Source of the DNA: Vitis vinifera
Taxonomy: Eukaryota > Streptophyta > Magnoliopsida > Vitales > Vitaceae
Direction: 5' to 3'
Assembly (NCBI RefSeq): GCF_030704535.1
Contig: NC_081822.1
Span: 7,234,501 to 7,298,500, forward strand
DNA: 64,000 nucleotides
The notes under the pieces were generated by a model, which ran no database searches, had not been told where the DNA came from, and saw nothing but the letters and a program-made list of their open reading frames with translations. Within the stretch, counting starts at the first letter, position 1. Each line of letters starts with the position of its first letter. The translations under genes were made by a program, and so were the position numbers. Of this stretch, positions 6,826 to 57,209 are shown piece by piece.

Positions 6826-6909
6826 AGCGTCCTCGGCGTCCTACTTGCTCACCACTTGAATACAATACCAACAGGCAACGAGAGAAATCCCCCCTGAATA
6901 ACAATAACA

Positions 6910-7257
6910 ATGTCTAAGCATACCTCCGTCTTCACCATACTACTCCTCCTGTTCTTCACACTATCCTCCGCCGCACGCCATGAGCCGACCTTCGTCACCG
7001 ACTCTGCTGTGAAATTTCAGTACGAGGTACCTCCATCAATTTCATTCTTCATCATCAACAGCGATCTCTTTCACAACAACAGTAACTGATTGATTATGTT
7101 TTTGGGGTTTTGGTTTGTGCAGGAAGTGGAAGCAGAGAAGAGCATGGAGGTCGTGGGCGGGAGTTGCGAAGGGGCAGCAGATAAGGATGAGTGCTTGATG
7201 AGAAGAACCCTGGCTGCTCATACCGATTACATCTATACTCAGAAGCAGAAGCCCTGA
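6910..7257 (+). CDS. PSK: Phytosulfokine (PSK) precursor, two exons, 83 aa
   Basis: Exon 1 is 6910-7026 (39 codons) and exon 2 is 7123-7257 (44 codons plus TGA). The 96-bp intron begins GTACCT, ends TGTGCAG and is in phase 0. The start is the ATG opening MSKHTSVFTILLLLFF, a typical signal peptide with a likely cleavage after SSA near residue 21. The mature region has the PSK-family layout: a variable acidic middle, the cysteine pair in SCEG...DECL (residues 54 and 63), then DYIYTQ with YIYTQ at residues 75-79 and a short basic tail. In this family both tyrosines are sulfated by TPST, helped by the Asp before the first Tyr. Subtilase processing then releases the secreted pentapeptide, which is sensed by the LRR receptor kinase PSKR and promotes cell growth and modulates immunity. 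Length and exon structure fit the family. The pentapeptide makes the call firm; the exact paralogue number is not assignable. Confidence 0.93.
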
Positions 7258-9739: not shown

Positions 9740-10170
9740 AAGTTGCGGGCTGTGGAGGGGGCTTTTTTAACTTCTACAGCTAGTGTAAAAAATAATTTTA
9801 AAAAAATGGTAGTTTGGAAAAAAATTCTTAAAATATGGTAGTTACAAAGTTATTGATAAATTTACGGTACTTTTTGCCACTTTGAAAGATGTTTCTTGAA
9901 AAGACACGTTCCATAGTATCTTTTCAATAGACATATTTCATAATTTTATAAAATTGAATTTATATTAAATGTGTCTCTTTAAAATATATTTTTTCATAAT
10001 TTCATAAAATTGAATTTATATTAAAGATATCTCTTCAAAAAATATTTTTCCATAATTTTTTTATTAATCATACATATTAAAAAAAAATTAAATTTATACT
10101 AAAGAAATATTATTTCCACAATACTATAAAATCAAATTTTACTAAATTTGTATCTTGAAAGTCATATCTA
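9740..10170. mobile_element. Diverged, one-armed relative of the palindrome-array element
   Basis: The left part (about 9785-9885) matches the left arm of the 14620-16399 element: GGTAGTTT, an A/T run, ATTCTTAAAATATGGTAGT, an A-rich stretch with TTATT, then TTTTTGCCACTTT. It is followed by TTTCTTGAAAAGACACGTTCC, the same theme as the CGTCTCTTGAAGAGACG palindrome there. Behind it come about three to four decayed units of roughly 58-75 bp built from TTTCATAATTTTATAAAATT, GAATTTATATTAAA and TGTCTCTT. I find no right arm, so the copy looks truncated. Confidence 0.5.
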
Positions 10171-11367
10171 GTATACATCATATATACTAGTGCACTCATT
10201 ATAGGAAACTGATCCCGATAATCAATACAAATCATCCATTTAATTAGGAGGTGATACATTATAGTTTTTACTAAATTGCCTAAATCCATGAAATAATTAT
10301 AGACAATTTATCTATTTATAAAGAACCTATAACTTGTATCTTCTATGTAACTCTCAATATACTTAAGCCATGTACAATGTAAAAAAAAAGAGTTAAATGT
10401 TCAAATCAATATCAATATATAAAAATAATAGCAAAGACCTAATAAAGTCTGACTTTATTACATCATGTTTTACTTTTAAGACTCAATTCCAATAATAATA
10501 AATTAAACCTAACCTACTATAATGTTGATTTCTTTGGAATCATAATGAAAAAAACTACGACTATTATTAGTTTTTGAAAGAAACAATTCATAAATATATT
10601 TTATTAGGCATATTGATCTTTTTTGATATCTTTGTAAATTCTTATAAAATTGTTATCTCATAAACTATTTTAGGAAGATTGAAATTGGCTATATTTGATA
10701 ACTATTCTGAAAAATAATTTTTTATTTTTTAAAACAAAAAGGCATGAAACCACGTTTGATTCTCAATTGTTTCCAAATAGGTTTTTAAAAATTGTTACAA
10801 GTGTTTTATGAGTGTTACATATAAAAGCATATTTTTAAGAATTATTCTATGTTAATTATTTTTAATTATTTTCACTTTTTTCTAAGAATAATCACAAATA
10901 AAAAACCACAGATAAATAGTTATCTTTAAGAAATGTTTGGAAACACCTAAAACATGTTAATAACATTCTAAATTCTTAAACAAATATTTGTTCTGACAAA
11001 TATCACAAAATTATTTTTAAAACGGTTCTTCCTTGAAAACTATTTTTGAAAGTACCCAAATATATGTCATATCTTTCCTTTGTTAATCTTATCACTTAAG
11101 TCGATAAAGGCAAGTGCATTCCTAAAGATATATCCTGTACTCACCTTTTCATTTGCCTAAAAGCTAATGTTATGTTTGGTGAGGGACAATTTTCTTTTCC
11201 TAGATTTTTGTACAATCGACCCTAGCCCAAATGATAACAGGTGTGCTCCTTCTAGAGAGTTTCAAATAAGCAGGCAATGGAAACATAAAAACAAGATTAC
11301 CTACCTTATTATAGAACATATAACAAAAATGTAACTGAGCTTGTTCTATTCTTATCATCTTCTCTTC

Positions 11368-11375: not shown

Positions 11376-11432
11376 TACGTCCCCTCCATCTATTCTCCCT
11401 CAACCATCACCACTTAAATCCCAACCACAACA

Positions 11433-11784
11433 AAGTCTAAAGTTACTGGCCTTCTCACCATAGTCCTCCTCCTCTTCTTCACAGTAACCTATGCTTCACG
11501 TCCTGAGCCCACCCTCGCCAGTGACTCTGCTGGGAAACTTCAATCTGAGGTAACTCATTTTCATTCTTCTTCGTCAGATACAATTTTTTTTCACAAAAAG
11601 AAAGAAAAAATATGATCGCATGTGTTTATCTGGTTATGATTTTTGTTTTGTATAGGGTGCGGAAGCAGTGAAGAACGTAGAGATAGTGGGTGAAAGTTGC
11701 AAAGGAGTGGCAGACATGGATGGATGCTTGAAGAAGAGAACCATGGTTGCTGATATCGACTACATATATTCTGTGGACCCCTAA
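11433..11784 (+). pseudogene. PSK-precursor-like tandem copy without ATG and with YIYSV
   Basis: The frame aligns codon for codon with the first PSK gene. Exon 1 equivalent is 11433-11549 (39 codons, same length), the intron is 11550-11655 (GTAACT...TATAG), and exon 2 is 11656-11784 (42 codons plus TAA). The signal-peptide-like LLTIVLLLFFTVTYAS and the paired cysteines (SCKG...DGCL) are kept, with no stop inside. Two key changes are seen. The ATG of copy 1 is AAG here, in the same local context, and a TAA lies in frame just upstream, so no in-frame ATG precedes the signal peptide. The hormone segment reads DYIYSVDP, so Thr-Gln of YIYTQ has become Ser-Val. The frame is otherwise clean and the promoter is kept, so a recent pseudogene, a non-AUG start or an error in the assembly are all possible. 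I favour a decaying duplicate. Confidence 0.75.
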
Positions 11785-12959: not shown

Positions 12960-14619
12960 ACTAGGACGACGCAGAGTCAAGGACCTCATGGGTAGAGACA
13001 CCTTGCACCCATGAGGGGCCCCGGAGAGACACGCAATGAGATAAAGAGTAGCATGTGCGCCTCAACATGTCGCAGTGCACCACTAGCACTCGACACTGCC
13101 TATGACTGCACACGATGTCATAGGTTATTACTCATGACACAACGACCGTAGCATGCGACTCAACAACATGGCAAATGGGTGGCACGTTCCAACTTGGTCC
13201 GAATTCAAGTATCGAATTTTTAGATTTTGGTATTTCTCCATTGAATATGAACCTTCAAAAGGGAGTTTCCAATTGGAATTGGATTTTTTCGAGTTTCCAT
13301 GAACTAATTAAAATTCATTATGTTCCCTTAAACATAGTTAATGTCTCTCCCAGAAACTTCTAAAATAACCTAAAATGCTCTTTAGGGTGGTGGGGATAAG
13401 TAACTCAAGGGAAGTAAGGTGGCTTAGGCAAAGCCACACATAAGGGCATCAATGCAAGGCTTTAGATGCGAGTAAGGCGCAAGAGCAAGCTTTGCTAGCA
13501 CTCGCACATGGGGCTTCACAACATGTGACAATGTGCAACCAATAGTCGTAATGGCATGGGGTGTAATGCAATCTCCCCCTCCTAATGATGGCACAATGGT
13601 GCAATGCCTTATGCAATGAGGTAGCCTGACAAGCCATGGGCGCAATGCCATGGCTTGTTGCCACACCAAGAGAGGGTTTAGACGTGGCTTGGTGCTGCTG
13701 CAGCAACGAAGTCATCTGAGGACATGATGACTGATGCCCAACACAAGGGAATAATGCCTTGGGCATGGAGATGAGAGGTCATGGGCACAATGCCATGACT
13801 CGTTGCACCAAGAGAGAGCTTGGATGTGGCTTAGTGCTATTGCAGCAACAAAAATGACTCGAACATGAGGACTAATGCGTGACAAGAGGGTCAGGCATGC
13901 CATTAATATGGCATGGCCGACTCTTAGGGCTTGTAAGATGGGGCAAAGCCTTGCAAAGGTTGACCCATGGGTGCCAAAGACATGAGCAACAACACTCTAA
14001 GGTGTCAGGGGCATAAGGAGACGACCTAATGATGTTGAGGCAACAACTAGGGGTCAAAACAAACATGCTAGTGCATGCCTGATGAGGCAAGAGGGCTGGA
14101 CATGACATAGGCGTGGCATGTTGCCTCCTCTTGTGGCTTTGTAAAGCATGGGAAGGACTTTGTAAGTGATGGTCTATGACAGGGACAACAACACCTAGTG
14201 TGCTGTGGGAACCCAGATATGGCATAAGGGTGGGCAGTAATGTGCGGGATGAGGCACATTGGTGCATAGGCAGATTGGACAAGTAGATATGGCTAAGGCA
14301 AAGCATTTATGTTGGTTGGTTAGCATGTGTGGGCTAGCACAAGGTGTTTGATGTGGGCCTGACCCACATGAACACACGGACCGAGGCCTGGATGTGGGCT
14401 GACTTGCAACAGTTCGTGTTGGACAAGGGCTCCAGGTTTGACATCATCAGAGGGTTGTTTGGCGAGTTGCAAGACAGGTTGCATGATACCTATTGAGAAG
14501 AGACACCAAGGGTGGCTGCAGTAAAATGCATTAGGATGCCCCAGAAGGCTGTAGATTGCATCAGATGGCCGCTGAAGGCATTAGAGGGCTTGGTGTTAGC
14601 TATGTGGCTTGAATAGACC
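12960..14619. mobile_element. GC-richer old repeat of uncertain class, left part of a nested block
   Basis: Base composition shifts abruptly to higher GC. There are no coding motifs: long open frames on the minus strand (13424-14377) are low-complexity and rich in His, Cys, Pro and Ser, and I do not believe them. It contains a 145-bp tandem duplication (13633-13900). It appears to continue after two younger insertions, at 16400-16532 and 19639-19860. The continuation has a TATA-like GTATAAATAGG near 16439 and an AATAAA near 19704, which would fit the regulatory part of a long terminal repeat. That is an inference; I found no ends, primer site or coding part. Old and broken. Confidence 0.35.
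13633..13900. repeat. Tandem duplication, period about 145 bp
   Basis: Copies begin GCCATGGGCGCAATGCCATG (13633) and GTCATGGGCACAATGCCATG (13778). Both continue with CACCAAGAGAG, a GA(C/T)GTGGCTT(G/A)GTGCT block, GCAGCAAC and a GAGGAC block. It lies inside the GC-richer repeat. Confidence 0.75.
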
Positions 14620-14859
14620 GGACTTTTCTCAATAGTACGGTAATTTAAAAAATTTATTCTTAAATTATTGTAGTAGAAGAAGTTATTACAAATATATGGT
14701 AGTTTTTGCCACTTAGGAAAGAGGGTGAATGGATAAATTTTTTTTTAAACCAAAATCGTCTTTTTATTTCCATTTTAAAAAAAATTCAAAAGGGAAATCG
14801 TCTCTTGAAGAGACGATTTCTCATTAAAAAAAATTAATATTTTTTTTAATATTTATTAC

Positions 14860-14890
<31 letters not shown>

Positions 14891-15166
14891 CCTCATGGGA
14901 AATCGTCTCTTCAAAAGACGATTTCCCATGAAAAAATCCCAAATCATATATAAAAAAATAAATAAATAAATCCTCAAGCGAACTCGTCTCTTCAAGAGAC
15001 GAGTTCCCATGAATTTTTTTTTTTTAAAAAAAAATCCCAAATTAATAATAATAATAAAAATCCTTAAAGGAACTCGTCTCTTAATTTTTTTTTTTTCAAA
15101 AAATCAATATTTTTTTAAAAAAAATCCTCAAGGGAATTTCGTCTATTTAAGAGACGAGTTCCCATG

Positions 15167-15214
<48 letters not shown>

Positions 15215-16399
15215 AAAAAAATCCTAAAGGGAACTCGTCTCTTTCCCTTGGGAAAAAATTAATATTTTTTTTAAAAAAAATCTCAAATTATAAATAAAGA
15301 AATAAATAAATAAATAAAATCCTCAAGGGAACTCGTTTATTGAAGAGACGAGTTCCCATGAAAAAAAATTAATATTTTTTTTTAAAAAAATCCCAAATTA
15401 TAAAATTAAAAAAAAAAAAAATCCTCAAGGGAACTTGTCTCTTCAAGACATGAGTTCTCATGAAAAAAAATTAATATTTTTTTAAAAAAAAATCCCAAAT
15501 TATAAAAAAAAAAAATCCTCAAAAAAAAAATCCCAAATTATAATTTTTTTTTTTAAAATTCCCAAATAAAAAAAAAAAAACCTCATGGGAACTCGTCTCT
15601 TAAAGAGACGAGTTCCCATGAAAAAAAAAATTCCCAAATTATAAAATTAAAAAAAAAAAATCCTCAAGGAAGAGACGAGTTCCCATGAAAAAAATTTCCC
15701 AAAAAAAAAAAAAAAAAAAAAAACCTCATAGGAACTTGTCTCTTGAAGTGACGAGTTCCCATGAAAAAAAATTCCTCAAAGAGACGAGTTCCCTTGAAAA
15801 ATATATATATATATTTTTAAAAAATTCCCAAATAAAAAAAAAAAACCACATGGGAACTCGTCTCTTAAAAAAAAATCCTCGTTTCCCATGAAATTTTTTT
15901 TTAAAAAAAAAAACTCCCAAATTAAAAAATAAAAAATAAAAAAAATCTTCAAAGGAACTTGTCTCTTCAAGAGATGAGTTCCCATGAAAAAAATTAATAT
16001 TTTTTTTTAAAAAAATCCTCAAGAAATTTCGTCTCTTCAAGAGACGAGTTCCCATGAAAAGAAAATATATATATATATATATATTTAAAAAAATCCCAAA
16101 TTAAAAAAAAAAAATCCTCGAGAAGAGACGAGTTCCCATGAAAAAAAATCCCAAATTATAAATAAATAAATAAAATCCTCAAGGGAACTCGTCTCTTGAA
16201 GAGACGAGTTCCCTTTTGAATTTTTTTTTTAAATGGAAATAAATTCGTCTTTTGAAAATATGATTTTGGTTTAAAAAAAAAATTATCCGTTCACCTTCTC
16301 TTCTAGGTGGCAAAAACTACCATATATTTGTAATAACTTCTTTTACTACAATAATTTAAGAATAATTTTTTTAAATTACCGTACTATTGAGAAAAGTCC
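14620..16399. mobile_element. Non-autonomous foldback element with long TIRs and a palindrome array
   Basis: The two ends are inverted repeats of about 150 bp. The left end starts GGACTTTTCTCAATAGTACG and the right end finishes with its exact reverse complement at 16399. Both arms contain TGGTAGTTTTTGCCAC and a CCAAAATC block. The flanks GAATAGACC (14611-14619) and TAGTAGACA (16400-16408) match at 6 of 9 positions including TAGAC in register, which may be an eroded 9-bp target duplication of Mutator type; this is weak. The core holds about 17 whole or half copies of a palindrome with arm GGGAACTCGTCTCTT, separated by A/T-rich spacers of about 50-60 bp (TTAATATTTTTTTTAAAAAA and CCCAAATTATAAAT). 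There is no credible protein. It sits inside the older repeat that starts near 12960. Confidence 0.75.
14790..16215. repeat. Array of about 17 copies of a 30-bp palindrome
   Basis: Cores lie near 14792, 14897, 14977, 15067 (half), 15133, 15228 (half), 15326, 15427, 15587, 15667 (half), 15729, 15778 (half), 15852 (half), 15954, 16023, 16119 (half) and 16183. The two leftmost have AAATCGTCTC arms; inner ones have AACTCGTCTC. The central base varies (CTCTTGAAGAG, CTCTTCAAGAG, CTCTTAAAGAG), so units occur in both orientations. The spacers include a (TA)n run at about 15171-15210. Confidence 0.85.
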
Positions 16400-16532
16400 T
16401 AGTAGACATCTATTGGGTAGGACCGTAGGAGCCTCTGGTATAAATAGGAAGAGGTCTCCCATGACTAAAAGGGTTGGAAAAAGGGGAAAATACGTAGGAG
16501 TGTAAAAGATTTGTAATCTCGGTTATGTGGAC
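16400..16532. mobile_element. Middle segment of the old split repeat
   Basis: Short segment between the palindrome-array element and the hAT element. It carries GTATAAATAGGAAGAGG (TATA-like) and runs directly into the hAT target site. After removing the hAT it continues at 19639 with GTGGACCTTAGAAAATTTC. Confidence 0.4.
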
Positions 16533-16891
16533 CAAGGGTCTCCAAAAAGCCCGTGGCCCACTTTAGGCCTGGCCCGACGGGCTAAAGCCCTTCAGGCCCA
16601 AGACCGTTTCTGGGCGGGCCGAGCCGCGGGCCTAATTTTAGGCCTGGCCCATAGGCCCGTAGGCTCGACCTTAGGCCCACCCCTTAAAAAAAAAACTACA
16701 AAAGTAAAAAGTATTAAAAAAAATATTCATTTCAAAATTTTATTCATTGAATGTATAATTACATTTGAAAATGTGGAAAAAGTTTACATCACTACAAAAT
16801 AAATACATCCCAACTAGGTTGACACCTATTTATTTGTCAATCATCTGTATTTTTCAACCACAAAAAATAAAAATAAAAATATAATATACAT

Positions 16892-18889
16892 TTAGTCATT
16901 ATTTTCTGGCGGTGATGGCGAACTATCATGCATCCATAAAGATCTTGATAATTTTAAAGATTCCATATTGGCAAGCATCTCTGTTTCTCGAATGGAATCG
17001 TACATCCTTTTATTTGCTATTTCCCAATCTTTCACACATATCCCTACTTCAATAACATCTGGCGCTAAGTTGCATCGTTTTTTAATAATTACTCTTCCAC
17101 CTATACTAAAAGCAATTTCTGATGCAACTGTACTCACAGGAACTGTTAGTACATCACGAGCAATTATAGAAAGCACAAGATGTTTGTGTTGATGTGATTT
17201 CCACCATATTAAAATATCAAAATCTTTTTGATCTTCAAATGAAATTATATCAGTATTAAAATATTTATCTAAATCAGATGTATTATTTGGAGAACTATTT
17301 GTTGTCTTTTTTCGACTTTTCAACATTTCTAGAGCTCCTTTATAAAAAGATGAGGAGTTTGTAGATGTAGGTGGTAATTTAATAGTATTAATATCATTAC
17401 CATATTTTTCTTGATAATAGTTATATAAATTATATAATAATGAATTTATTTCATTTTTAATTTCTTCAATTTTTATTTGGTCATTAAAATAAATAATTGT
17501 TAACCATTCATCCAAAGCTTCAAATTTCAATCTAGGGTCCACAATTAAAGCAATATAAAAAATTAAAGGTATTTCTTCCCAATATTTTCTAAATTTTTCT
17601 ATCATTGCAAATACTGTATCATTAAATATTTCAAAACTTAAATATTTTTGAAGTACAATAAAAATATTAGTTATTTGCATAATAACTCGATTTGAAGTTG
17701 GATAATATACACCACAAAAAATGTTTGTTGAAGTATCAAAAATTTCAAAAAGATCCGCAATATGCCAATCATAATCATTTAATGTATAAATATATGCTTC
17801 ACAATCATTGTTAATTAATTGTATTTCATATAATTCGACTACTTTTCTATATTTTGTAATATTTTGTAAAAGTTTATATGTGGAATTCCATCTAATGGCC
17901 ATATCCAAAGTTATATTTTTTCTTTTCATATTTAACATTTTGCAACAATAAAAAAATAATTCATGTTTTGCTTGAGAACTATTAATACTATATGCAATGC
18001 CTCTAATTTTTTCCAATGTACTATCAACATTTTTTAATCCATCCTTTACAATTAAATTTAAAATATGTGCACAACAACGCATATGAAATATTTTAGTATG
18101 ATCTTCTTTTACTTGCCAATATCGTTTTAATCTATGTATTGCTGCATCATTATTAGCAGCATTATCTAATGTTATTGACAATATTTTATCACGAATGCCT
18201 AAATCTATAATTTCATCATTTATTAAAGATGCTATATTTTTACCATTATGTGGAGCATTTATTAATTTAAATGAAATTATTCTTTTATTTAATTTCCATT
18301 CATTATCAATGTAGTGAGCAGTTATACATAAAAAACCAGTGTGAGTTAAAGATGTCCAAATATCAGATGTTAAACAAATATTTCCTTCAAAATTTGCAAA
18401 AAAAAAATTTTTAATTTCTTTTTGTGTATAAATTTTTTTCATAATATCTCTTTTAACTGTATTTCCAGACCAACCTTTAAATTGAGGATTAATACCTCGT
18501 TGAATTGTTCCTGCAAAATCATGAGTTCCCATCATGTTGAAAGGTTGTTCTGCTCTTATTATATAATCAATCATTTCTTCATGACAGTTAGATTCATCAT
18601 AAGAAAATGTGTTTAAATTTCCACTTTCATTTTTACCTAATTGCATATAATTTTTAATATCTACATTATTTTTAGTTTTACAATTTTCATGATGTCTTTT
18701 TAAATGACTTGTGCCTGCATTTGAGCCACCAGTAAGAAATTTATTACAAATTTTACATTTTGTTTTTATTTCTTTTTTATTATTTTCTAAAATTATTTAT
18801 ATTCTATAAAAAAAATTTCATATATTTGAAGTAAATTTTTTGTTTGATGATATTTCATCACATGGACTAGATGAAGAAACACTTGCCAT
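16892..18889 (-). CDS. hAT transposase (RICESLEEPER/DAYSLEEPER type), N-terminus interrupted
   Basis: A continuous 584-codon frame runs from an ATG at 18646 to 16892. The same frame extends upstream through a BED-type zinc finger (KCKICNKFLTGG...SHLKRHHENC) to a plausible true start at 18889 (MASVSSSSPCDEISS). Two stops, at about codons 24 (TGA where Trp is usual) and 31 (TAA), separate that start from the finger. The main frame shows the RNase H-like core (ICLTSDIWTS, then LNKRIISF and LSITLDNAANND) and the C-terminal hATC dimerisation domain (WWKSHQHKHLVLSIIARDVL, VPVSTVASEIAFSIGGRVI). The zinc finger binds the transposon ends, and the core cuts and pastes the DNA. With the two stops, a full protein would not be made unless translation starts internally at 18646, which drops the finger. 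It is therefore probably inactive, though most of it is well preserved. Confidence 0.85.
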
Positions 18890-19178
18890 ATTATAATTAT
18901 TAATAAAATATTATGCCAAAAATAATAAAGTAATAAATATAAAAAAAATGTAACAAAAAAATAAAGTAGTAGGGGTGAAGTATGTTACTCAATTAGAGAA
19001 CCGATGCAAAAATTCCTAGCAAATTTGAACTCTTGGAGCCACCAATGCTTGTTTTCCACCACCAACAATATTGTATAATTTGAGAGAAAAATAAAAGAAT
19101 TTGAAATATTGTAGAATGTGAGAGAAATAGAGAGAGAAATAGAGAGAATTTGATGAAAAAATGAAAAGGAAGAAAATG

Positions 19179-19189
19179 TATTTATAGGA
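19179..19189 (-). promoter_or_regulatory. TATA box of the hAT transposase
   Basis: On the minus strand it reads CCTATAAATAC, about 290 bp upstream of the ATG at 18889, and is followed by a GA/CT-rich leader (AGAGAGAAATAGAGAGAG on the plus strand, 19121-19147). Confidence 0.55.
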
Positions 19190-19221
19190 AGGTTAAAAAA
19201 AAAATTTTCAAAATTCAAAAT

Positions 19222-19307
19222 AATTGGTCATGTGACCGTTGGAGGCTTACCTCCAATGGTCACATGGGCTGGAGCTAGGCTCCAACGGTCACATAACCTT
19301 TGGAGCA
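19222..19307. repeat. Hairpin cluster in the hAT promoter region
   Basis: CATGTGACCGTTGGAGG, a 4-base CTTA loop and CCTCCAATGGTCACATG form a 17-bp stem with one mismatch. Directly after it CTGGAGC-TAG-GCTCCAAC forms a second stem, and GGTCACATAACCTTTGGAGC is a further copy. The motif GGTCACATG(N)CCGTTGGAG is thus repeated about four times in alternating orientation, just upstream of the TATA box. Confidence 0.75.
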
Positions 19308-19382
19308 TTTATTTTTTTTTAAAAAAAATAATATACTTTATATATATATATAACTCAATTAATAAATATAAAAAGAATGTAA

Positions 19383-19440
19383 TTTAGCTAGTTAGAAACT
19401 TAAAGTTTAAACATGAGGGGAGGGGTTCGAATCCCCCCTT
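19383..19440 (+). repeat. tRNA-like remnant inside the hAT element
   Basis: GGGGTTCGAATCCCC at about 19421-19436 is a perfect T-arm/box B. TTTAGCTAGTTAG about 30 bp upstream resembles box A at roughly tRNA spacing. There is no convincing acceptor or anticodon stem, so I read it as a decayed tRNA- or SINE-derived piece and not as a tRNA gene. Confidence 0.35.
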
Positions 19441-19638
19441 TCCCTTCCCTTGGCTTTCAATATAAAGCCATTTTGACTTAATTCAAAAAGCCCGCGGGCT
19501 CATAGATGGGGCCGCGGGCCTAGCATTTTAGCATGGCTCGGCCCGGCCCGTTGACCAATCAACGAGCCCATAGGCCCGGCTCGAACTGGGCTACGGGCCT
19601 CCTATTTAGGGGCCCGGCCCGGCTGTTGGAGACCCCTG

Positions 19639-40099: not shown

Positions 40100-42800
40100 A
40101 AAGAATGAATCCACATCCTTTACCTTGTCCCCACTCTTTGAACCACGTCGTCTAGAGGTTTCGCACGAAGCCCCCCTCAACGTTAAAGTCGAGGGAAGAG
40201 ATGGAGTACACGTTGGGTTGGGTCAGGGTCCCAGCGTACGAAAGCGACCCTTTTCGATTCGTATATCTTTTTTTATTTTATTTTTTCAAAATTTTTCGTT
40301 TTCTCAACCCAAAAAGCCCGAATAATTATTAATTTTAAAAAACAAAAGTTGCATTACTGGAAGGCCCGTGGGCTGGGACCCACAGAGAGCGTGCCTTTCA
40401 TAAAGTGCCAGCTCAGCTGTTTGACCATTATATGGAATTTGACTGTACGCCTCGGGGGGTGCTTTCCGGTCACCAGTTTGACTGCCTTCATGGTGCGTCC
40501 CCTCACCAATTGCTTGCTTTTAGCCATCAAACACTGACACGTGGCGGTGGGAACCGTGCGTCTCTCACTTTCGCTCTGGCCAAGTCTCTTTTTCGTTTGT
40601 AGTTTAGTTGTTAATTAGTTGATTTAATTAAGATTTAAGACCTCAGTCTGCTTGTGGGATTTGTTAAATGGGAGGGAGTGGGAGGAAGAGATTTGACTAA
40701 TATTCTGTCGTTGCAGAGTACAGGTGGTGTGACTCGAAAAGATGATGTCGTTTCTCTAAATTCTTTCTCACAATCCCATTTTCCCTACTTTTCAATCCTC
40801 AAATATTATTCAAATGTAGTGCCAAATCCCTTCTGAATTTAAGATATTTTTATTACATCAATTAAGACAACTTCCATTTAAATATTCAAATTATTTTTTC
40901 AAATGGTACCTTTCCCCCTTATTTTCGTTTAAAATATTTTTTCAATTTTCTTATTTTAAATTATTTTATTTTATTTTTAAAAAAACACAAGTATAAATAC
41001 CTTACAACTCACCTAAATGAAATTTGCATAGACCATCGTAATCATTCACTCTAATTTGTTCAAAGCTATGATCAAATTTTGTATTTTGATAAAAAATAAC
41101 TCATTTAAAAAAATATCCATAAATTAAACCCGATTATGAAATAATGCTCAATTTAGTGTGTCTCCATCATATAAATATTCATGTTATAAAATAGTAGTTG
41201 GTGACTACGAATTTAATTTTTTTTTTTTTAAGTGGTTAAAATTATAGTCACTACCTATGGTTTTAACTTTAAACTTAAAATTATATTACAATTTTGATCA
41301 TTTAAAAAAATAAAATAAAAACAGTAATTACCAACTATGGATGATTATGATTATTTTAAATGAAACAACATATTTTATATATATAAATTAGCATTAATTT
41401 TAAGCTTAAAACTATAATTGGTGATTATGATTTTGATTCATTTTTAAATAATCAAAGTTGTAGTCATCAACTCTGATTTTAATATTAACATTAAATGGTT
41501 TTGATCACTTAAAAAAAAAAAAACAAATTGTAGTTATCAACTACGATTTTATGATATAGATATCTACATGATGGATTTTATGATATGGATATATACGTGA
41601 TGGAGGTACACTAAATTAAGCATTATTTTGGAGTTGGGTTTAATTTGTAGATATTTTTTTAAAATTGGTTATCTTTTTTGTCAAAACTCCAAATTTCTAA
41701 CATCATTCATACATATTATGTCAATAAAAAAATACTTAGATTATCAAATATTTTTAATAAAAAATATACCTTTTGATATTTTTATTAAGAGTGGATTTGA
41801 TAGTGATTTTAAAAATTATTTTTCATCTTTTTAATATTTAAGTAAAAATTTTCAAGTATTAAAAAGATTAAATTTTTTTTCTAAAATTACTACTCTAAAT
41901 CTTTATTCATTTGAATTTTTATTTTTTTTAAATTAATGAACTCCCTTTGCTTTCAATTTTCAAATATAAGATAAATTTTAGAATATTCTAATATTTTTTT
42001 TATCTTTAATAAATTTTACTAATAAAAATAAAATTAAAGACAGATAAATTAATTGTCTTTAATTTTATTAGCAGTTAGCTGCATATTATAGAATAAGTAT
42101 AGAAGTTTTTTCTTACTAAAATCTATTTAAAAAAAAATAAAATTATAAAAGATTGGCTTAAGGCTAGGTTCAATAAGCCACGTGTGAACTACATCCTGCA
42201 ATATGACCTATAGTTCTATCATTGTTAATAAAGCTTGAAATATTATGAACTATCATTATACAATTTGGCAGTGCCACTATTTATAAGAGTGAGTATAGTT
42301 ATTAATTTGTAATAATTAAATTGAAATAGTGGCTATTTGAATGATTAAGATTTATGATCGATTTACCTGGGTAGTCATGATTGAACTCTGGAATCTGGTG
42401 TCAGCCATACCAAAGGCCATGAGACATTGAATCCAATACGGGAGAAGATAACATTATTTGCTTTTGAGATTAATACAGATTGAAGGGTACTGCAAAAGGT
42501 GAAAAGGTATTGGGAGGAAGCGAATGGCTTTATTCGTGGTTTCATATATTCTCTGGCGAAACTTCCTTTTGACATTCACAGCCACAGGAGGCAGCTGAGC
42601 TCTATGCTCTCAGTTTCCTTCTCATTATTATAAAAGTTAAAACACACACTTAAGGATCTCTAATTAATAATGGCAGTATGTGATCAGAAAGAGATCACCA
42701 CTTCACTGACAGCTTGTCCTTGAGCCCCATACCACTGCCTTGCCAATAACACTCTTTGAAAAAACAAAAACAATCTAAAATCATGCAGTCACACATTGTC
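40100..42800. other. Intergenic region between the U-box gene and the LCAT pair
   Basis: No gene supported. GACACGTGGCGG (40536-40547) is an ABRE/G-box-like site in a GC-richer block (40120-40600) that may be a distal promoter or old gene remnant. It also holds the second palindrome-array element (41070-41697) and a decayed inverted repeat at about 41789-41903. Confidence 0.45.
41070..41697. mobile_element. Second foldback element with TIRs and a palindrome array
   Basis: The left arm (about 41070-41195) and right arm (about 41555-41697) are inverted copies. TTTTGATAAAAAATAAC, AAATTAAACCC, AAATAATGCTCAATTTAGTG and CTCCATCA on the left match the reverse complement of the right arm in the same order. 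The core carries about six decayed copies of a palindrome near GTAGTTGGTGACTACGATTTT (41194, 41246, 41325, 41412, 41460 and 41531), each followed by a TTTTGAT(C/T)A(C/T)TT-plus-A-run spacer. The design is the same as in the 14620-16399 element, but the sequence is different. Ends and target duplication not fixed. Confidence 0.65.
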
Positions 42801-43156
42801 AGCATGCTCATCTTCACATGGCTTACCGCCTATTTAAAACTTCATTTAAGAAACGCTTCTCGGATTAGGTCATGACTCATACTAGGCCTTTGGCCTCATA
42901 TAGAGTGCTTAATTCCCACCAATGGAAGACTTATTTTGTCTATAACTTAAGTTAAGAAATTACCCCTTTGGATGAATTCCTGAACGAAAATAACCAGGTT
43001 AATAATGGCAGGAAAATTGGAGCTTTGCAAACGTATGTTGGTGGGTTTTCATTGAAATATGAGGGTTCCCTGAAGTTGGAACCAAATGTTACAGATTGAG
43101 AAATCATAACGGTTCCCAATTGCCAGGCAATTGATCACTGGTCAATTGGGTTGTTT

Positions 43157-45329
43157 TCATGATGAATAGGTATAAGAATTAATACCTGAAATTTCTTCTA
43201 CTATTCTATTAAGTGCATTTTCGTCTTTGATTATGGATGTATGAGATGCCCCTTCAATGGTAACCATCTTAAGGGACTGATTTTGTTGGTCGGCCCACTC
43301 CGATTCAAGTGCTAACAAGCTCACCATGTTCACTGTCCCATCTCCATCCCCGTAAACAATCTCTGGTTGTCTATCAAAGCCACTTTCATCATAGAACAGT
43401 GTCTCGGATGTTCTAACGCCACTCCCGATTATACAGGTGACGGGCACCTCAGGCGCTGGTAAGTGTTCCAACAAAGGCACAGTGCGAGATTGGTAAGGAT
43501 GGATCCCTTCCGGGAACCCAATGTCATTGAGGAACTGCACAATATCGTATGCTGTATAAGTAGCATTTAATGTAACCACGAGTGGTTGTTTGGCACCAAA
43601 GACTTTAGGAGAAGGCATGAGCCATAAGTTGCTCTCTGAGCTCCTCTGCTGCTCCCTCACCAGCAATGGATCAACTAGGGGTACTCCCAGAGTGTAGCCA
43701 GAAGCAAGGGTGTGCACTTCCTGCACTGCGCCACCCCAAGGAGCGGACAGTGCGACGAAGTGCTTGATGAATTTCTGACGCCAAGCTGGGGGGTTTCGGT
43801 TGAGAAGTTGGAGGACAAAGAGGCCTCCCAAGCTGTGGGAGACAAGTATTACTGGCTTTCCTCCATTGGAAGTGCTTGCTTTTTCTATCAAATCTTTGAG
43901 GTCCTCAAGGAACTTGGAACCAACACGTGATGGGTGACCATCTGCCGCTAGACCGTATCGAAAGTCATATGGAGCTCCGAATAATGTTTCGCCATCAACG
44001 TAACCCATTTGCTCCAGAGATTTCACCAGGGGCCCCATGTATGCTGTGATGCGCCTGCCAATGGGACCAATGTTAGATGTAAATGTGCCTGTTCCTCTTT
44101 TTGTTACTGCCAATACTAAACAGTAAATCCCTTCCTGCAATTAGTACAGTTGACTGCTAAATATCTTCTATAACTTCAGTTGTTAATTGGTTCCACCTTG
44201 GATGACTATGAATTAGGACAATCTTCAGTCTTCACTAGTTATCAAAATTTAGTATGGCTCTACACTTCATGCTTGAACTTCGATATAAAAATGCATACAT
44301 TTAACTTTTGAAAACAAGAATGGTTCTAAAAACTTAAATCCAAAGACCACTTTAAGCTTCTGTGTAAACAAAATCAAATGGGTTCAGCTGTTATCTCTCC
44401 ACTCGTTCAGTAAAACAAACTCACAATTTTAAATGGATGACAAAATGAACAAATAAACATCTCCAAATGACCAACGGCAGCCAAAATTCAACAGTCTCCC
44501 GCGGAAAGAAATGGTATTTGGATTCCAGCCCAGTCATTGGACCTTATTCCCATCACTGGTTGGGCTTAAGTGTTGTAGCCAGGCTGACACTGCTCTATAC
44601 AGTTTTCTCTGGGTCATCCATTCAAACTAATTTTTGTTGCTGGATTTGGTGAAGAGTTCCTATTCAGAGTTTCCATAATATTATGAAATATGCATACATA
44701 TAATTAAAATAATCATACCATCTATCCACTCAAAGAAATATATTCATCCCAGAGTAGAACACTCTTCCGTAGAGAGTATATGCCACTCTGCTAGAAGGAC
44801 TATTTCACTAGACTGACTAGATAATGGGACAGAGGCCCCAGGAGTCAGGAGTCAAAAACGGCCCAAATGTGTTGAAATTGTGGAGCACATGTTTAAGCTG
44901 AAAAGATTACCAAGAAAGAAAGAAACAGGGTAGAGCGGCGGCTTACTTGAGATGAGGATCTAAATGAAGAAGGGAGCGAGTAGAACCAAAGCTAGGGACC
45001 CTGGTTTCAACACCAGGGGTATTTACATAATCATCAAGTTGTGGGTCATAGTAAAGCATCATCCGCTGGGCAAAGCATTGAGTGAATGGACCAACGACTT
45101 GGGCGGGGTCGAACCACAGCCTGAACCACCCTTCTTTGTCCTTCAAAGGCGGATAGAGTCGGCTGCACAGCAAGCTCGACGGTTTGTACCCATCCGTAAG
45201 CCTTGCTTCTAGCTGATTTCCACCACTCCCCGGCACCAGGATCAGAGGGTGGAGGTTGCTGCTCGCCTGACATGTGTACCACATCACGGCCATCGAAACC
45301 ATCGCGAATATTAAGCCCAATCCCTTCAT
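43157..45329 (-). CDS. LCAT1: Lecithin:cholesterol acyltransferase-like lipase 1, copy A, 426 aa
   Basis: Two exons: 45329-44947 and 44054-43157. The 892-bp intron has donor GTAAGC and acceptor GGCAG, and the joined frame is 427 codons with the stop. The signal peptide MKGLGLIFAMVSMAVMWYTC ends near residue 22. PLILVPGSGGNQLEARL is the family's N-terminal oxyanion block. The nucleophile elbow is VSHSLGGLF, with Ser at about 202. The acid is probably in YGDGDGTVN and the His in EGASHTSI, completing an alpha/beta-hydrolase triad. By similarity to Arabidopsis LCAT-like 1 (At1g27480, 432 aa), it is a secreted or endomembrane phospholipid acyl hydrolase or acyltransferase; the true substrate of plant members of this branch is not settled. 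A TATTTAA on the minus strand at 45439-45445 is the likely TATA box. The gene is intact and has a tandem partner 4.7 kb away. Confidence 0.92.
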
Positions 45330-45438
45330 TTTTGGATTTTGGAGAGAGAATTGGAACCTTGGAGATTCAGACCCACTGTCTGCAATTCGGACGTCGCCAC
45401 ATACAACTGTGTGGTGGAGAACCTCCCGACGTGGCTGG

Positions 45439-45445
45439 TTAAATA
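45439..45445 (-). promoter_or_regulatory. TATA-like box, LCAT copy A
   Basis: TATTTAA on the minus strand, 110 bp upstream of the ATG. Copy B has ATTATTTAA at 50075-50083, 80 bp upstream of its ATG. Confidence 0.45.
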
Positions 45446-45805
45446 GGAGGGAATTGATTTCCCCTTCTCTTGTGGACTCGTTGACTAATTTTGCTAGAAG
45501 CTTAGAAAGAAAAAAAAAAGATAAAAACTTGACATGAAAGATAGAAAAATATTACTTATAATATAAGCTTTATTTGAAGCTATATAAAAAGTTTTTTGAA
45601 TTTAGCATACATAATACATAGTCAATCCTAACTATGATTTGCCAACTCCAAGAGAAGAACACTCATAAAATTTTTAAGTAATTTAAAATTCTCCTCATGT
45701 GAAATATGATGATTATTAATTAAAACTGTCAAAAGAAAATGAGTACAATATTTGATATTATTTTTCTTTCATTGAATGATGCATTCTTCTCTCTTATTTG
45801 TCAAA

Positions 45806-47566
45806 TACATCCATTATACAACCTTCATTTCAAGACCTTCAATATCACATCCACTATGGTAACATCTCTATAAAATAATAATTTTTAAATCTAAACGAAA
45901 TTATTCTATTTGTAAAATTATTAATTTATCGATAAATAAAATAAATTTACTAATTTATCGATAAGTAAATATTTATTAATTTAGATAAAATATTATGCTT
46001 TTACTATATATAATTTGCATATGTATGAATTATAAAATTATTAATTTAGTATATTGGTTCAAATTAAGATCATAAAATTTATTATTTATGTGGGATTATC
46101 AATTTATTGAATATTTATTTATTGAGGTTTTATTAAATTTACCCATGCGTCAAAATGGTTTAAAGACGTTAAAAAGCGATAAAAGATATTGGATTCTCCT
46201 CAAAGTTCTATCATTTTTTTAATAATAAAATATGAAGAAAATAAATAAATAAATGTGAAGTGATCGAGACTAATACGGTTTTAAGTGTATATTAAAAAAA
46301 AGAGTGAATTAGGTATCGGTCAAATCTTAATTTTTAAGATGTAATATAAATGATGATGCTAAATACAATAACAATGAAAAAAAATAAAAACAACGAAAAT
46401 AAATAAAGACATGAAGAAAGAAACGCAAACAATTATTATAATAATTACTTAATTAGGTTCACTTTTTCTGAGCTCTTTTCGACCTTGAGATTTTTTCCTC
46501 AACTCATGAGAACTACTTCAACTAAAGCCCCCTAGTCTTATTACATTTGGATTCTAGGTTCAAACAAATTTTTACAATGTTTGGAGTGATGGATCCTTTA
46601 CACTTAATCAAACATTTCTTTTATTTTTTATCGAAACGTAAGTCAGAATTTATATAAAAGATATATTCACTTAACTTTGGGGAAATGGTTTTTTCAAGTT
46701 TAGAAGTAAGTGCACTAAAAAAGAGTGTTCATTATGCTCTTTTGTAAATGACATTGTAATCTCATAAATAAATTTCGAAAGTTCTAAATATAAGTTCGAA
46801 ATTGGAACTTCCCGTTAGACATAAGCTACAGTTCAATCTGCCCATCAAACGACCAACTATTTAACTAGTCGAGGTTGCAACTAATCGTTGGATGGTTGGA
46901 CGTCAACTAAATGTTGCAAAATCGATTGGTACCTCGACTGAACATGGCTCGCCTAAACCCAAAGTTTATGAAATATTTTCATGTAGGAAGCAAAAATTTA
47001 AGGTCAACCTTTGTAGCTTTAAATGCTCGGAAACCCAAACTGCAAACAAAAATTTAAAGTCAACCTTTATTGCTTTAAATGCTCCTGTATCACCGAGTCA
47101 TGAAGGAGCCTCACGAACCTTATGATCATTCTAAGGCAACTGACCGGCAAATAATGGAAGCTAAAAGACAAAAACATCTGCTTGAGCTTTTCTTAAGAAA
47201 AGAAGAGTTACAGCAAATAGTATTTGGGAACATTTCCCCACCCAGAGTTACTCGAGAGATACAAAATCCCTTGGAGTAGAGAAAAACAAAAAGGTCCTTG
47301 TGAGTGAATGGGTTATCCTCATAATCCGTAGTAGAGACAAAATTCGACATTTGGAAACAAGGTAACGAACATCTTGCTGAGTCCTTAACTTTGTAGAAGT
47401 TAATCAAAGTCAGGATGAGATTCAACTAGAAAATGTCCTTGAACCTTGACAAATCGACCTAATCTCACCGGCAATGACAATGATATTTATCAACCTCAAT
47501 ATGGTGTGCTTGTCAGTTGTCATTGCTTCACCAATAGCCAAACTATATCAAGTGCTTTTGAGATAT
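45806..47566. other. Spacer between the two LCAT units, not duplicated
   Basis: About 1.76 kb that has no partner outside copies A and B. It contains a 56-bp two-copy repeat (46990-47100) and weak open frames (46892-47279) with no motif. It may be an insertion or the remains of the original intergenic DNA. Confidence 0.5.
46990..47100. repeat. Tandem duplication, period about 56 bp
   Basis: CAAAAATTTAAGGTCAACCT and CAAAAATTTAAAGTCAACCT, both followed by TT(T/A)(G/T)T(A/T)GCTTTAAATGCTC, in direct order. Confidence 0.75.
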
Positions 47567-50565
47567 GCTCAACTTCACACGGCTTACCACTATTTAGAAC
47601 TTCATTTTTGAAAATGTTTCTCAGATTAGATCATAACTAGGCCCTTGGCCTCATATAGAGTGCTTAATTCCCACCAATGAAAGACTTATTTTATCTGCAA
47701 CTCCATGGATCTCTCCGACGAGTTGATGCTGCAAGTGATGCATGGGTATCTCTCATACTTCAAATTACGCTAAGAAATGACCCTTTTGGATGAATTCCTG
47801 ACCAAAAATAACCAGGTGAACGGCAGCAAAATTGGAGCATTGCAAATGTATGAAAGATCCTGTATACTGGTGGAAGATTTTCATTGAAATTTGAGGGTTT
47901 CCCTGAAGTTGGAACCTAGTGTTACGGATTGAAATATAGTAAACGCTCCCAATTGCCAACCAATTGATCACTGATCAATTAGGCTCTTTACATGATGAAT
48001 ATCAGAATTAATACCTGAAATTTCTTTTACTATTCTATTAACTGCTTTTTCGTCTTGGAATATTGAAATATGAGAAGCCCCTTCGATTCTAATAGTCTTA
48101 AGGGGTTGATTTTGCTGATCAGCCCACTCCAATTGAAGAGCTTCCAAGCTTACCATGTTCACTGTCCCATCTCCATCCCCATAAACAATCTCCGGTTGCT
48201 TATCAAAACCACTTTCATCATAGAACAGTGTTTCTGCTGTTTTAACACCACTCCCGAATATACAGGTGACAGGCACCGCAGGCGCTGGTAACCGTTCCAA
48301 CAAAGGCACAATGCGAGATTGGTAAGGATGGATTCCTCCCGAAAACCCAATGTCATTGAGGAACTGCACAACATCATTTGCTGTATAAGTAGCATTTAAT
48401 GTGACCGCAAATGGTTGCGCACCAAACACTTTAGGAGAAGGAATGAGCCATAAGTTGCTCTCTGAGCTCCTCTGCTGCCCCCTCACCAGCAATGGATCAA
48501 CTAGGGGTGCTCCCAGTGTGTAGCCAGAAGCAAGGTTGTGCACTTCCTGCACTGCGCCGCCCCAAGGAGTGGCCAGTGCAACGAAGTGCTTGATAAATTT
48601 CTGGCGCCAAGATGGGGGGTTTCGGTTGAGAAGTTGGAGGACAAACAGGCCTCCCAAGCTGTGGGAGACGAGGATTACTGGTTTTCCTCCATTAGAAGTG
48701 CTTGCTTTTTCTATCAAATCTTTGAGGTCCTCAAGGAACTTGGAACCCACACGTGATGGGTGACCATCTGCTGCTAAACCGTATCGAAAATCATATGGAG
48801 CTCCGAATAATGTTTTGCCATCAACGTAACCCATATGCTCCAGAGCTTTCACCAGGGCCCCCATGTATGCTGTGACGCGCCTGCCAATGGAACCAATGTT
48901 AGATGTAAATGTGCTTGTTCCTCTTTTTGTCACTGCCAATACTAAATTCCTTCCTGCAATACAGTTGACTGCTAAATATCCTCTAGTACTTCAATGGTTG
49001 ACATATATATGCTTAATTGGTTCCATATTTGTTGACTTTTTGAATTAGGACAATCTTCACTAGATATGAAAACTTAGTATGGATCCTAATTTTCATACTT
49101 GAACTTTGATATAATAAATAAACGCATTTAAATTTTTTTTTTTAAATGGTTCTAAAAAAATGATTTTAAATTGACCACCGGACAGCTAAAATTCAAGTGG
49201 CTTGTGGATTCCAACCAAGTCCACTGGTTGGGTTTTAAATGTTGAGGCAAGCTGTCTACAGTTTTCTCTGGATCATCTATTCAAACTAATATTTTTTGTT
49301 CTCAGAGAAATGCCTTGTGCAACCATCAGCTTTGGTGAAGAGCTCCTCTCAGTTTCAACAATATGAAATGTGTATGCATATAATTAAAATAATCATACCA
49401 TGTAACTGCTATGTGTGGAACACTCTTTCTGTACAGTAGAGTATATGCTCCTGTGACAGGAGGACTATTTTACTAGTCTGACTAAATAATGGGCTTGAGT
49501 CCAGACGCCTCACGACTCAAAAGTGGCCCAATTGTGGAGCCCATGTTTAGGCTGAAAAGATCACCAAAAGAGAATAAAGAGGCCCGATATTAGAGCAATG
49601 GCTTACTTGAGATGAGGATCAAGATACAGGAGGGAGCGAGTAGAACCAAAGCTAGGGACCCTGGTTTCGACCCCAGGGGTATTTACATAATCATCAAGCT
49701 GTGGGTCATAGTAAAGCGTCATGCGGTCGGCAAAGCATTGGGTGAATGGAGAGACGAGCAGGGCGGGGCGGAACCACAGCCTGAACCACCCTTCCTTGTC
49801 CTTGAAAGGCGGATAGCTTCGGCTGCACAGCAAGCTGGACGGTTTGTATCCATCCGTAAGCCTTGCTTCTAGCTGATTTCCACCACTCCCTGGCACCAGG
49901 ATCAGAGGGTGGAGATTGCTGCTTGCCTGACATTCGTACCACATCACGGCCATCGAAACCATGCCCATTATTAATCCCAATCCCTTCATTTCCATTTTTT
50001 TTTCTTTTTTTCCTTTTTCGGAGATTCAGACACTCTGAGCTACTCGTGTAGCGGAGGATCTCCCACCTCGCTGCTTAAATAATAGCGAATTTATTTCCTC
50101 TCGTCTTCTAGAGTTTAGACTTGTTGACTAAATTTGTTAGCAAAGCTTGTTTGCAATCAGGGAAGAATAAAAAAACACAATCTTCACTGGAAAGCTGTAC
50201 AATACTTCTCGCATAAGATTTGTTTCAACTTATATAAGAAGGAGTTTTTTATTTAATAAAAAATTTAATAATATTAATATTATTTTTAAAAAATGGGCAT
50301 CACAAAATATGCTTATTCTAACGCTATATTTTGAATCAACAAATGCTTTTGAATTTAGCGTAGTCCAATTCCAATGATAATTTGCCGACCAAAAAAAAAG
50401 GGTATCCATAAATTTTGTAAGCAATTTTTAGGTCCCTTCCAATCTTCACATGAAAGATGATGATTAGTCAGAAAAATTGTCAAAAATAAAATGAGTAGAA
50501 TTTGAGAAAAGAAAGTATATTTTTCCTTTATTAAATGATGCATTCTTCACTTTTATTTGCCACTC
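47567..50565. repeat. Segmental tandem duplication, copy B (LCAT gene unit)
   Basis: Matches 42806-45805. Shared outer landmarks are GGCCTCATATAGAGTGCTTA (42892 and 47648) on one side and AATGATGCATTCTTC (45775 and 50535) on the other. Exons are much better conserved than intron and flanks, as expected under selection on both copies. Confidence 0.8.
47968..49995 (-). CDS. LCAT1: Lecithin:cholesterol acyltransferase-like lipase 1, copy B, 433 aa
   Basis: Two exons: 49995-49607 and 48880-47968. The 726-bp intron sits at the same codon as in copy A (donor GTAAGC, acceptor GGCAG), and the joined frame is 434 codons with the stop. It starts MEMKGLGLIMGMVSMAV, with an alternative Met two codons on matching the start of copy A. 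The signal peptide, PLILVPGSGGNQLEARL, the nucleophile elbow VSHSLGGLF, YGDGDGTVN and the His block EGASHISI are all kept, so the triad looks complete. Compared with copy A the C-terminus is longer (GINSDIHHVKSLIDQ), closer to Arabidopsis LCAT-like 1, and there are scattered replacements in the outer loops (for instance WFRPALLVSPF for WFDPAQVVGPF). No breaks. Both copies appear functional; expression divergence is plausible because intron and promoter have drifted. Confidence 0.92.
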
Positions 50566-56732: not shown

Positions 56733-56884
56733 TCCGCAGATTATGGGAACTTTTCATTGGATTACCCTGAACGGTATGGATTAATTTATTTCAATTTTGT
56801 CTCCAGTTGATTCAAAGGAGATTTATTTTGCTTGTAAATACGCGTCTGAACTATGAAACGTTAATTTCATGACGAGGAAATCTA

Positions 56885-57076
56885 GTGTTTTGCAGTACCT
56901 TTAATTTATTTTCCCAATTGTTTATTCCTCTTGTTTGGAAACGATCTGAGGATAAATGGAATTCATGGACTGATGGACAAGTGTTTTGCAGTACCTTCAA
57001 TTTATTTTCTCAATTGCTTACTCCTCTTGTTTGGAAGCGATTTGAGGATAAATGGAATTCATGGATTGATGGACAA
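56885..57076 (+). repeat. 96-bp tandem duplication in the probable 3' UTR
   Basis: Two exact-length units (56885-56980 and 56981-57076), both beginning GTGTTTTGCAGTACCTT and ending ATTGATGGACAA or ACTGATGGACAA. They differ at seven sites, all of them transitions. The region stays open in one frame as two 32-residue repeats (VFCSTFNLFSQL...), but four of the seven changes alter the residue, so I do not read it as coding. Confidence 0.85.
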
Positions 57077-57209
57077 GGAATTCCATCGCCGGGACGAAGT
57101 CTTACAATCTCTTTTTTGCATTTTCAAAGATTAATAATTCCATCTCTGGGGTCTGGACGAAGTCTTCTAATCTCGTTTTTCACTTTCAATGTTAATTATT
57201 GATGATTAT

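Follow-up and report, generated by a model that had tools for sequence, protein, structure and literature searches.

The window analyzed here is a 64,000-nucleotide stretch of Vitis vinifera DNA (contig NC_081822.1, positions 7,234,501 to 7,298,500 of the forward strand), and all coordinates refer to positions within it. The proteins recognized in the window include a hAT transposase, a plant U-box/ARM protein, and LCAT-like proteins. Two similar LCAT-like gene regions, 42804-45803 and 47565-50562, are 85% identical over their main block, with an LCAT domain identified by Pfam in the first. Repeated sequences in the window include a 350-bp repeat in two copies (6900-7239 and 11423-11772, 70% identical), a 96-bp tandem duplication at 56884-57077 (approximately 92% identical), and a self-inverted stretch of approximately 620 nt at 41074-41696 (67% by BLAST) that is perhaps a foldback or MITE-like element. 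A hAT element occupies 16533-19638, with ends CAAGGGTCTCC and GGAGACCCCTG, an 8-bp target duplication, ATGTGGAC and TTGTGGAC, matching at 7 of 8 positions, and a minus-strand 634-amino-acid frame with hAT dimerization and RNase-H-like domains. To its left, at 14620-16399, lies the element that is the subject of this report, a non-coding element bounded by terminal inverted repeats (TIRs) and filled with an array of palindromes. Its parts are as follows.

14620-14764, plus strand: left terminal inverted repeat of 145 nt, which starts GGACTTTTCTCAATAGTACGG and shows 93% complementarity to 16255-16399
16255-16399, minus strand: right terminal inverted repeat, partner of 14620-14764
14765-16254, plus strand: array of 17 palindrome units, head-to-tail, with 33-158 nt between centers (14 of 16 spacings are 65-105 nt)
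14792-14822, no strand: palindrome unit 1, a AAATCGTC variant with both arms altered alike
14897-14927, no strand: palindrome unit 2, a AAATCGTC variant like unit 1
15587-15617, no strand: palindrome unit 9, with perfect 15-bp arms and A at the center
16183-16213, no strand: palindrome unit 17, with perfect arms and G at the center, overlapping the extended inverted repeat at its inner end
16242-16272, no strand: degenerate palindrome lying at the inward end of the right inverted repeat, from the TIR alignment and the repeat-family listing

An earlier note on this DNA had described TIRs of about 150 bp enclosing no protein, and both observations hold. The aligned TIRs match at 135 of 145 sites, and seven of the 10 substitutions are transitions (K2P 0.073). 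None of the six reading frames of at least 70 amino acids that touch 14620-16399 matches Pfam at an E value of 0.01. A gapped inverted match extends farther inward, through the outermost palindrome on each side (14620-14820 against 16399-16185, 87%), and the outermost palindromes are therefore part of the inverted repeat. In the TIR alignment, the degenerate palindrome at 16242-16272 on the right is opposite a gap of 13 columns on the left. The GC content of the element is 0.23, and mononucleotide runs are numerous. By eye, the flanks at 14000-14619 and 16400-16532 resemble a retrotransposon LTR (TATAAATAGG lies beyond the right end of the element); no second copy of the flanking sequences (13000-14619 and 16400-18500) was detected in the window by BLAST. 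The left flank also contains a short direct duplication (13627-13710 and 13772-13852, 80% identical).

The palindrome units were located by scanning the element for arms matching GGGAACTCGTCTCTT with at most four mismatches, so that arms with more than four mismatches cannot enter the counts. The scan detected 14 left and 14 right arms, which pair into 17 units, in agreement with the approximately 17 copies described previously. Both arms are present in 11 units; three units have only a left arm (15068, 15229, and 15852) and three only a right arm (15670, 15779, and 16123). The center base, which had been reported as G, C, or A, is G, C, A, or T among the 11 complete units. Near-perfect palindromes, defined as having at least 12 of 15 paired positions and at least 8 G+C, number eight in the element and nine in the window, whereas 200 Markov resamplings of the element gave a mean of 0.04 and never more than 1. 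The 158-nt distance between the centers at 15444 and 15602 holds a spacer-like stretch that lacks a palindrome and consists of TCCTCA, then a run of A, then TCCCAAATTATAA; a search for TCCCAAATTATAA kept the best matches only and so gives no count.

The orientation of the units does not bear out the suggestion that they were flipped or copied in both directions. Because the non-palindromic spacer motifs all point one way, with forward-to-reverse counts of 12:0 for CCTCA, 11:0 for TCCCAAAT, 5:0 for ATTAATATTTTTT, and 19:0 for AATCC, the array is arranged head-to-tail. The motif CCCATGA gives 11:2, and its two reverse matches (14893 and 15583) fall inside units 2 and 9, in both of which the palindrome is longer and takes in CATGGG...CCCATG. 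The center base of an odd-length palindrome, on which the suggestion had been based, is no certain guide to the direction of copying. A foldback arrangement, with subrepeats mirrored in both ends, was considered and rejected: the units run one way, and only the outermost palindromes are mirrored.

It had also been proposed that the arms are far better conserved than the spacers, as a result of either recent amplification or selection on the hairpin. This contrast depends on which adjoining sequence is compared. Substitutions relative to the consensus affect 28 of 420 arm sites (6.7%; 9 of 210 in right arms and 19 of 210 in left arms), a count that omits the six unfound arms, three left and three right. 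The upstream anchor TCCTCAA is substituted at 17 of 91 sites (18.7%) and the downstream anchor ATGAAAA at only 4 of 91 (4.4%), each scored without gaps beside 13 of the 14 arms on its side, the outermost being omitted since TIR sequence follows it. The right arms are thus kept no better than the letters adjoining them downstream. The lower conservation of the upstream anchor is due partly to four units that carry a CCTCAT or CCACAT variant. Judged by eye, much of the apparent spacer divergence comes down to how long the A, T, and AT runs are, and the apparent conservation of the arms results in part from this mode of spacer change. Nevertheless, the arms are better conserved than TCCTCAA, which leaves room for some constraint on them.

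Neither of the explanations offered for arm conservation is supported by the pattern of change within this copy. The TIRs differ by a K2P distance of 0.073, and one arm is lost or severely disrupted in 6 of 17 units. The 165 base pairs of the 11 complete units contain 23 one-sided changes and two paired changes, and both of the latter are the identical change found in units 1 and 2. With so few paired changes, selection on the hairpin is not demonstrated, and no constraint on pairing is seen in this copy. Of the 28 arms, 23 retain the CpG and five have TpG in its place, a change that we infer reflects methylated, decaying DNA. Some variants are common to distant units, namely TTG (15429, 15730, and 15953) and AATTTCG (15133 and 16023). 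They may have spread by copying within the array, or, in the case of TTG, may have arisen by repeated CpG decay.

The earlier note further predicted that a transcript would fold into a chain of hairpins nested inside one very large hairpin and would be an ideal source of small RNA. In the plus-strand minimum free energy (MFE) structure, the large hairpin is recovered, with 137 of 145 left-TIR bases paired to the right TIR. The chain is not: only 3 of the 11 complete units fold back on themselves locally, and in the other eight the left-arm positions examined pair with another unit or stay unpaired. Folded singly, the 31-base palindromes have predicted energies of -10.7 to -24.3 kcal/mol, and a chain of hairpins would be one among many possible pairings. 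It is plausible that the element could be a source of small RNAs. A stronger proposal is that either the element or its host retains the array because it supplies hairpins from which small RNAs are made. Consistent with this, the predicted fold is very stable (-651 kcal/mol for the plus strand and -680 for the minus strand, compared to a mean of -264 and a minimum of -297 in 10 Markov resamplings), and the long TIRs of Mutator-like elements are often sources of siRNA, according to PMC10398659. In addition, 13 arm bases occur in bra-miRn20-5p, described in PMC3936892 as a Brassica hairpin small RNA, and the match reaches 15 bases in three units that have two A residues after the left arm (15070, 15589, and 15854), though chance may explain it. 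However, every long inverted repeat folds well, so that the energy is no sign of selection. The scarcity of local hairpins in the plus-strand MFE structure, the absence of a compensatory pattern among the 11 complete units, and the lack of any Rfam match in the whole window at gathering thresholds all count against retention as a precursor, which we regard as very unlikely.

Array sequences of this kind had been suggested as a search target elsewhere, and one decayed relative lies within the same window, to the left of the element.

9808-9889, plus strand: inner part of a related TIR, surviving as a relict with 78% identity across 87 columns
9890-10170, plus strand: degenerate array adjoining the relict TIR, with TCTCTTNAAGAGA four times at up to two mismatches (9892, 9919, 9974, and 10030); right limit set by eye

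The relict gives BLAST scores of 62 with the left TIR and 65 with the right TIR, whereas the left TIR scores at most 36 in all 240 control window segments. The BLAST match does not include the outer 19 TIR bases, and BLAST did not find a second end of the relict. Within its array is a 56-bp direct repeat (9936-10047, 89%). At up to two mismatches, TCTCTTNAAGAGA occurs four times within 9760-10180 compared to five times elsewhere in the window once both elements are set aside, a contrast that is descriptive because the motif was picked after viewing the relict; matches with up to three mismatches are common throughout the window and were not counted as evidence. The search thus yielded a second array with the same order of parts, a TIR followed by an array of palindrome cores, albeit one that is decayed. 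Its palindromes are weak, as its predicted fold (-45.9) lies approximately 2.5 standard deviations under the mean of 200 resamplings (-31.2, standard deviation 5.8), the lowest of which reached -52.3. This weakness and the missing second end speak against the reading favored below, as does the retention of a similar core in both arrays despite TIRs that are only 78% alike. Because the relict has one, the palindrome core is probably older than the copy at 14620-16399, and the array is probably a family trait that predates this copy rather than a single-copy accident.

These observations also bear on whether the sequence is a transposon at all. The low GC content and many mononucleotide runs could be taken to indicate that A/T-rich, low-complexity sequence has simply drifted, or that the stretch is what remains of a satellite, with an inverted repeat arising by chance. 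We find this barely credible given TIRs of 145 nt at 93%, eight near-perfect, GC-holding palindromes where 0.04 were expected, and a second related TIR in the window.

The sequence immediately outside the TIRs provides a lead to the class of transposon.

14611-14619, plus strand: candidate decayed 9-bp target duplication, left copy GAATAGACC, matching 16400-16408 at 6 of 9 positions
16400-16408, plus strand: candidate decayed 9-bp target duplication, right copy TAGTAGACA, pairing with 14611-14619

The target duplication of Mutator-like elements is usually 9 bp. The 6 of 9 match has a probability of 0.02 if 9 bp alone is considered and 0.07 if any length from 3 to 11 bp is allowed. Together with the long TIRs, this weak duplication suggests that the element is perhaps Mutator-like, although the superfamily is a lead only. 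Of the features of a non-autonomous, MITE-like TIR transposon, the element has the terminal inverted repeats and lacks any frame with a Pfam match; as for dispersed copies, the window holds one decayed relative. Alternatively, the array could belong to a TIR transposon from outside Mutator, whether hAT, PIF/Harbinger, CACTA, or one not yet placed. The weakness of the 9-bp duplication leaves space for such an assignment, as does the fact that no transposase ties this TIR to Mutator. On the other hand, flank agreement is only 2 of 8 at 8 bp and 0 of 3 at 3 bp, and the end GGACTT is not the CACTA end. Long TIRs, moreover, suit Mutator-like elements (MULEs), as described in PMC3310237. Membership in another superfamily is therefore unlikely.

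Comparison with known systems covered open-licence papers by title, start of abstract, and selected passages, among which no array of this kind was found. The nearest systems are MULE or foldback elements with internal repeats, short interrupted repeat cassettes (SIRCs), and the arrays of VANDAL elements, and as these sources describe them, the element looks like a striking variant of a familiar kind. Non-autonomous MULEs with long or multiple TIRs resemble it in their long TIRs and mostly lack transposase, and the modular repeats in or beside the TIR in tandem-TIR MULEs and in MuTAnT provide a further likeness (PMC3310237, PMC4486113). Tandem-TIR MULEs repeat the TIR, however, whereas this element repeats interior palindrome units (PMC3310237). 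MuTAnT of Medicago is a long-TIR foldback MULE, 90% of whose copies are 200-300 bp and which targets TA microsatellites; the interior of the element described here, by comparison, is one direct array of palindrome units (PMC4486113). Foldback-type MULEs such as Tm1 (PMC3169594) and FARE of Arabidopsis (as cited in PMC4486113) have composite TIRs with variable numbers of tandem repeats. In Tm1 of root-knot nematodes, 45 of 53 copies have 8-10 bp duplications, TIR identity averages 93.15%, and the TIRs consist for the most part of 13-15 bp repeats, whereas here the array lies between the TIRs, runs in one orientation, and is built of units that are themselves palindromes (PMC3169594).

SIRCs of Arabidopsis likewise consist of direct short repeats with spacers and are enriched in MITEs. 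Palindromes with 3-bp arms are reported in the repeats of 1064 SIRCs and palindromes with 4-9 bp arms in those of 211, and their origin is left unexplained by the authors (PMC10342631). We rejected classification of the element as a SIRC: these have 2-8 repeats of 10-29 bp and diverse spacers, compared to 17 units with 15-bp arms and related spacers here (PMC10342631). In the available descriptions of MULEs, Tm1, MuTAnT, and SIRCs, we did not find 17 one-way palindrome units with 15-bp arms. The exact palindrome patterns also had no matches in bacterial, archaeal, and viral contigs, a result of little weight since these are non-plant collections.

The VANC target arrays of VANDAL elements are similarly composed of a tandem short motif in non-coding transposon DNA and differ among relatives (PMC5735166, PMC10398659), and they suggest the best alternative to the reading that we prefer. 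The palindromes might be binding sites for a dimeric element-encoded protein, either transposase-like or a VANC-like anti-silencing protein, in which case the array would be a docking platform evolving by tandem repeat turnover. As described in the same two papers, VANC targets are short tandem-repeat motifs in non-coding VANDAL DNA whose arrays turn over quickly among related copies (PMC5735166, PMC10398659). Features of the grape sequence that would agree with binding are the location of a palindrome where the inverted repeat ends inward, the like alteration of both arms in units 1 and 2, and the recurrence in the relict of the core TCTCTTNAAGAGA between different outer arms, though this core was chosen with the relict in view. 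Against binding, 6 of 17 units have lost or broken an arm, and one-sided changes outnumber paired ones by 23 to two. In addition, VANDALs have degenerate TIRs (PMC10398659) and encode proteins, unlike this element, and the string "palindrom" is absent from the main text of PMC5735166. Overall, we consider a binding-site array unlikely. Still less likely is a more specific proposal, a fast-evolving docking platform that would be the palindromic counterpart of the VANDAL arrays, with site and protein changing together; such joint change is hinted at by the two relatives in this window, which have the core in common but differ in their outer arms. Nothing that we found shows that the palindromes do a job.

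We therefore return to the reading that we judge probable, namely that the element is an old non-autonomous TIR transposon, perhaps Mutator-like, in which a subterminal palindrome unit was tandemly amplified. A transposase encoded elsewhere would have mobilized it in trans. The inner end of its inverted repeat carried an AT-rich unit with an odd-length palindrome of approximately 31 bp, as shown by the inverted match that runs into the outermost palindromes, and this palindrome may originally have served as a subterminal site for protein binding. The unit would then have been amplified in tandem, always in the same direction, with replication slippage or unequal exchange as the presumed mechanism; the head-to-tail order, the variable spacing, and the variants common to non-adjacent units point to such processes. 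Single arms would have been lost later, probably by the same route, while CpG decayed to TpG.

The locus looks like a plant TIR transposon whose interior has turned into a palindrome minisatellite, a plan that is seemingly common to two relatives in one window. If the palindromes do bind an element-encoded protein, the case for sequence-specific anti-silencing arrays would extend beyond VANDALs. If they do not, the element would provide an example of palindrome units that amplify and then lose arms, and would show how easily an array of this sort could be taken for hairpins under selection.
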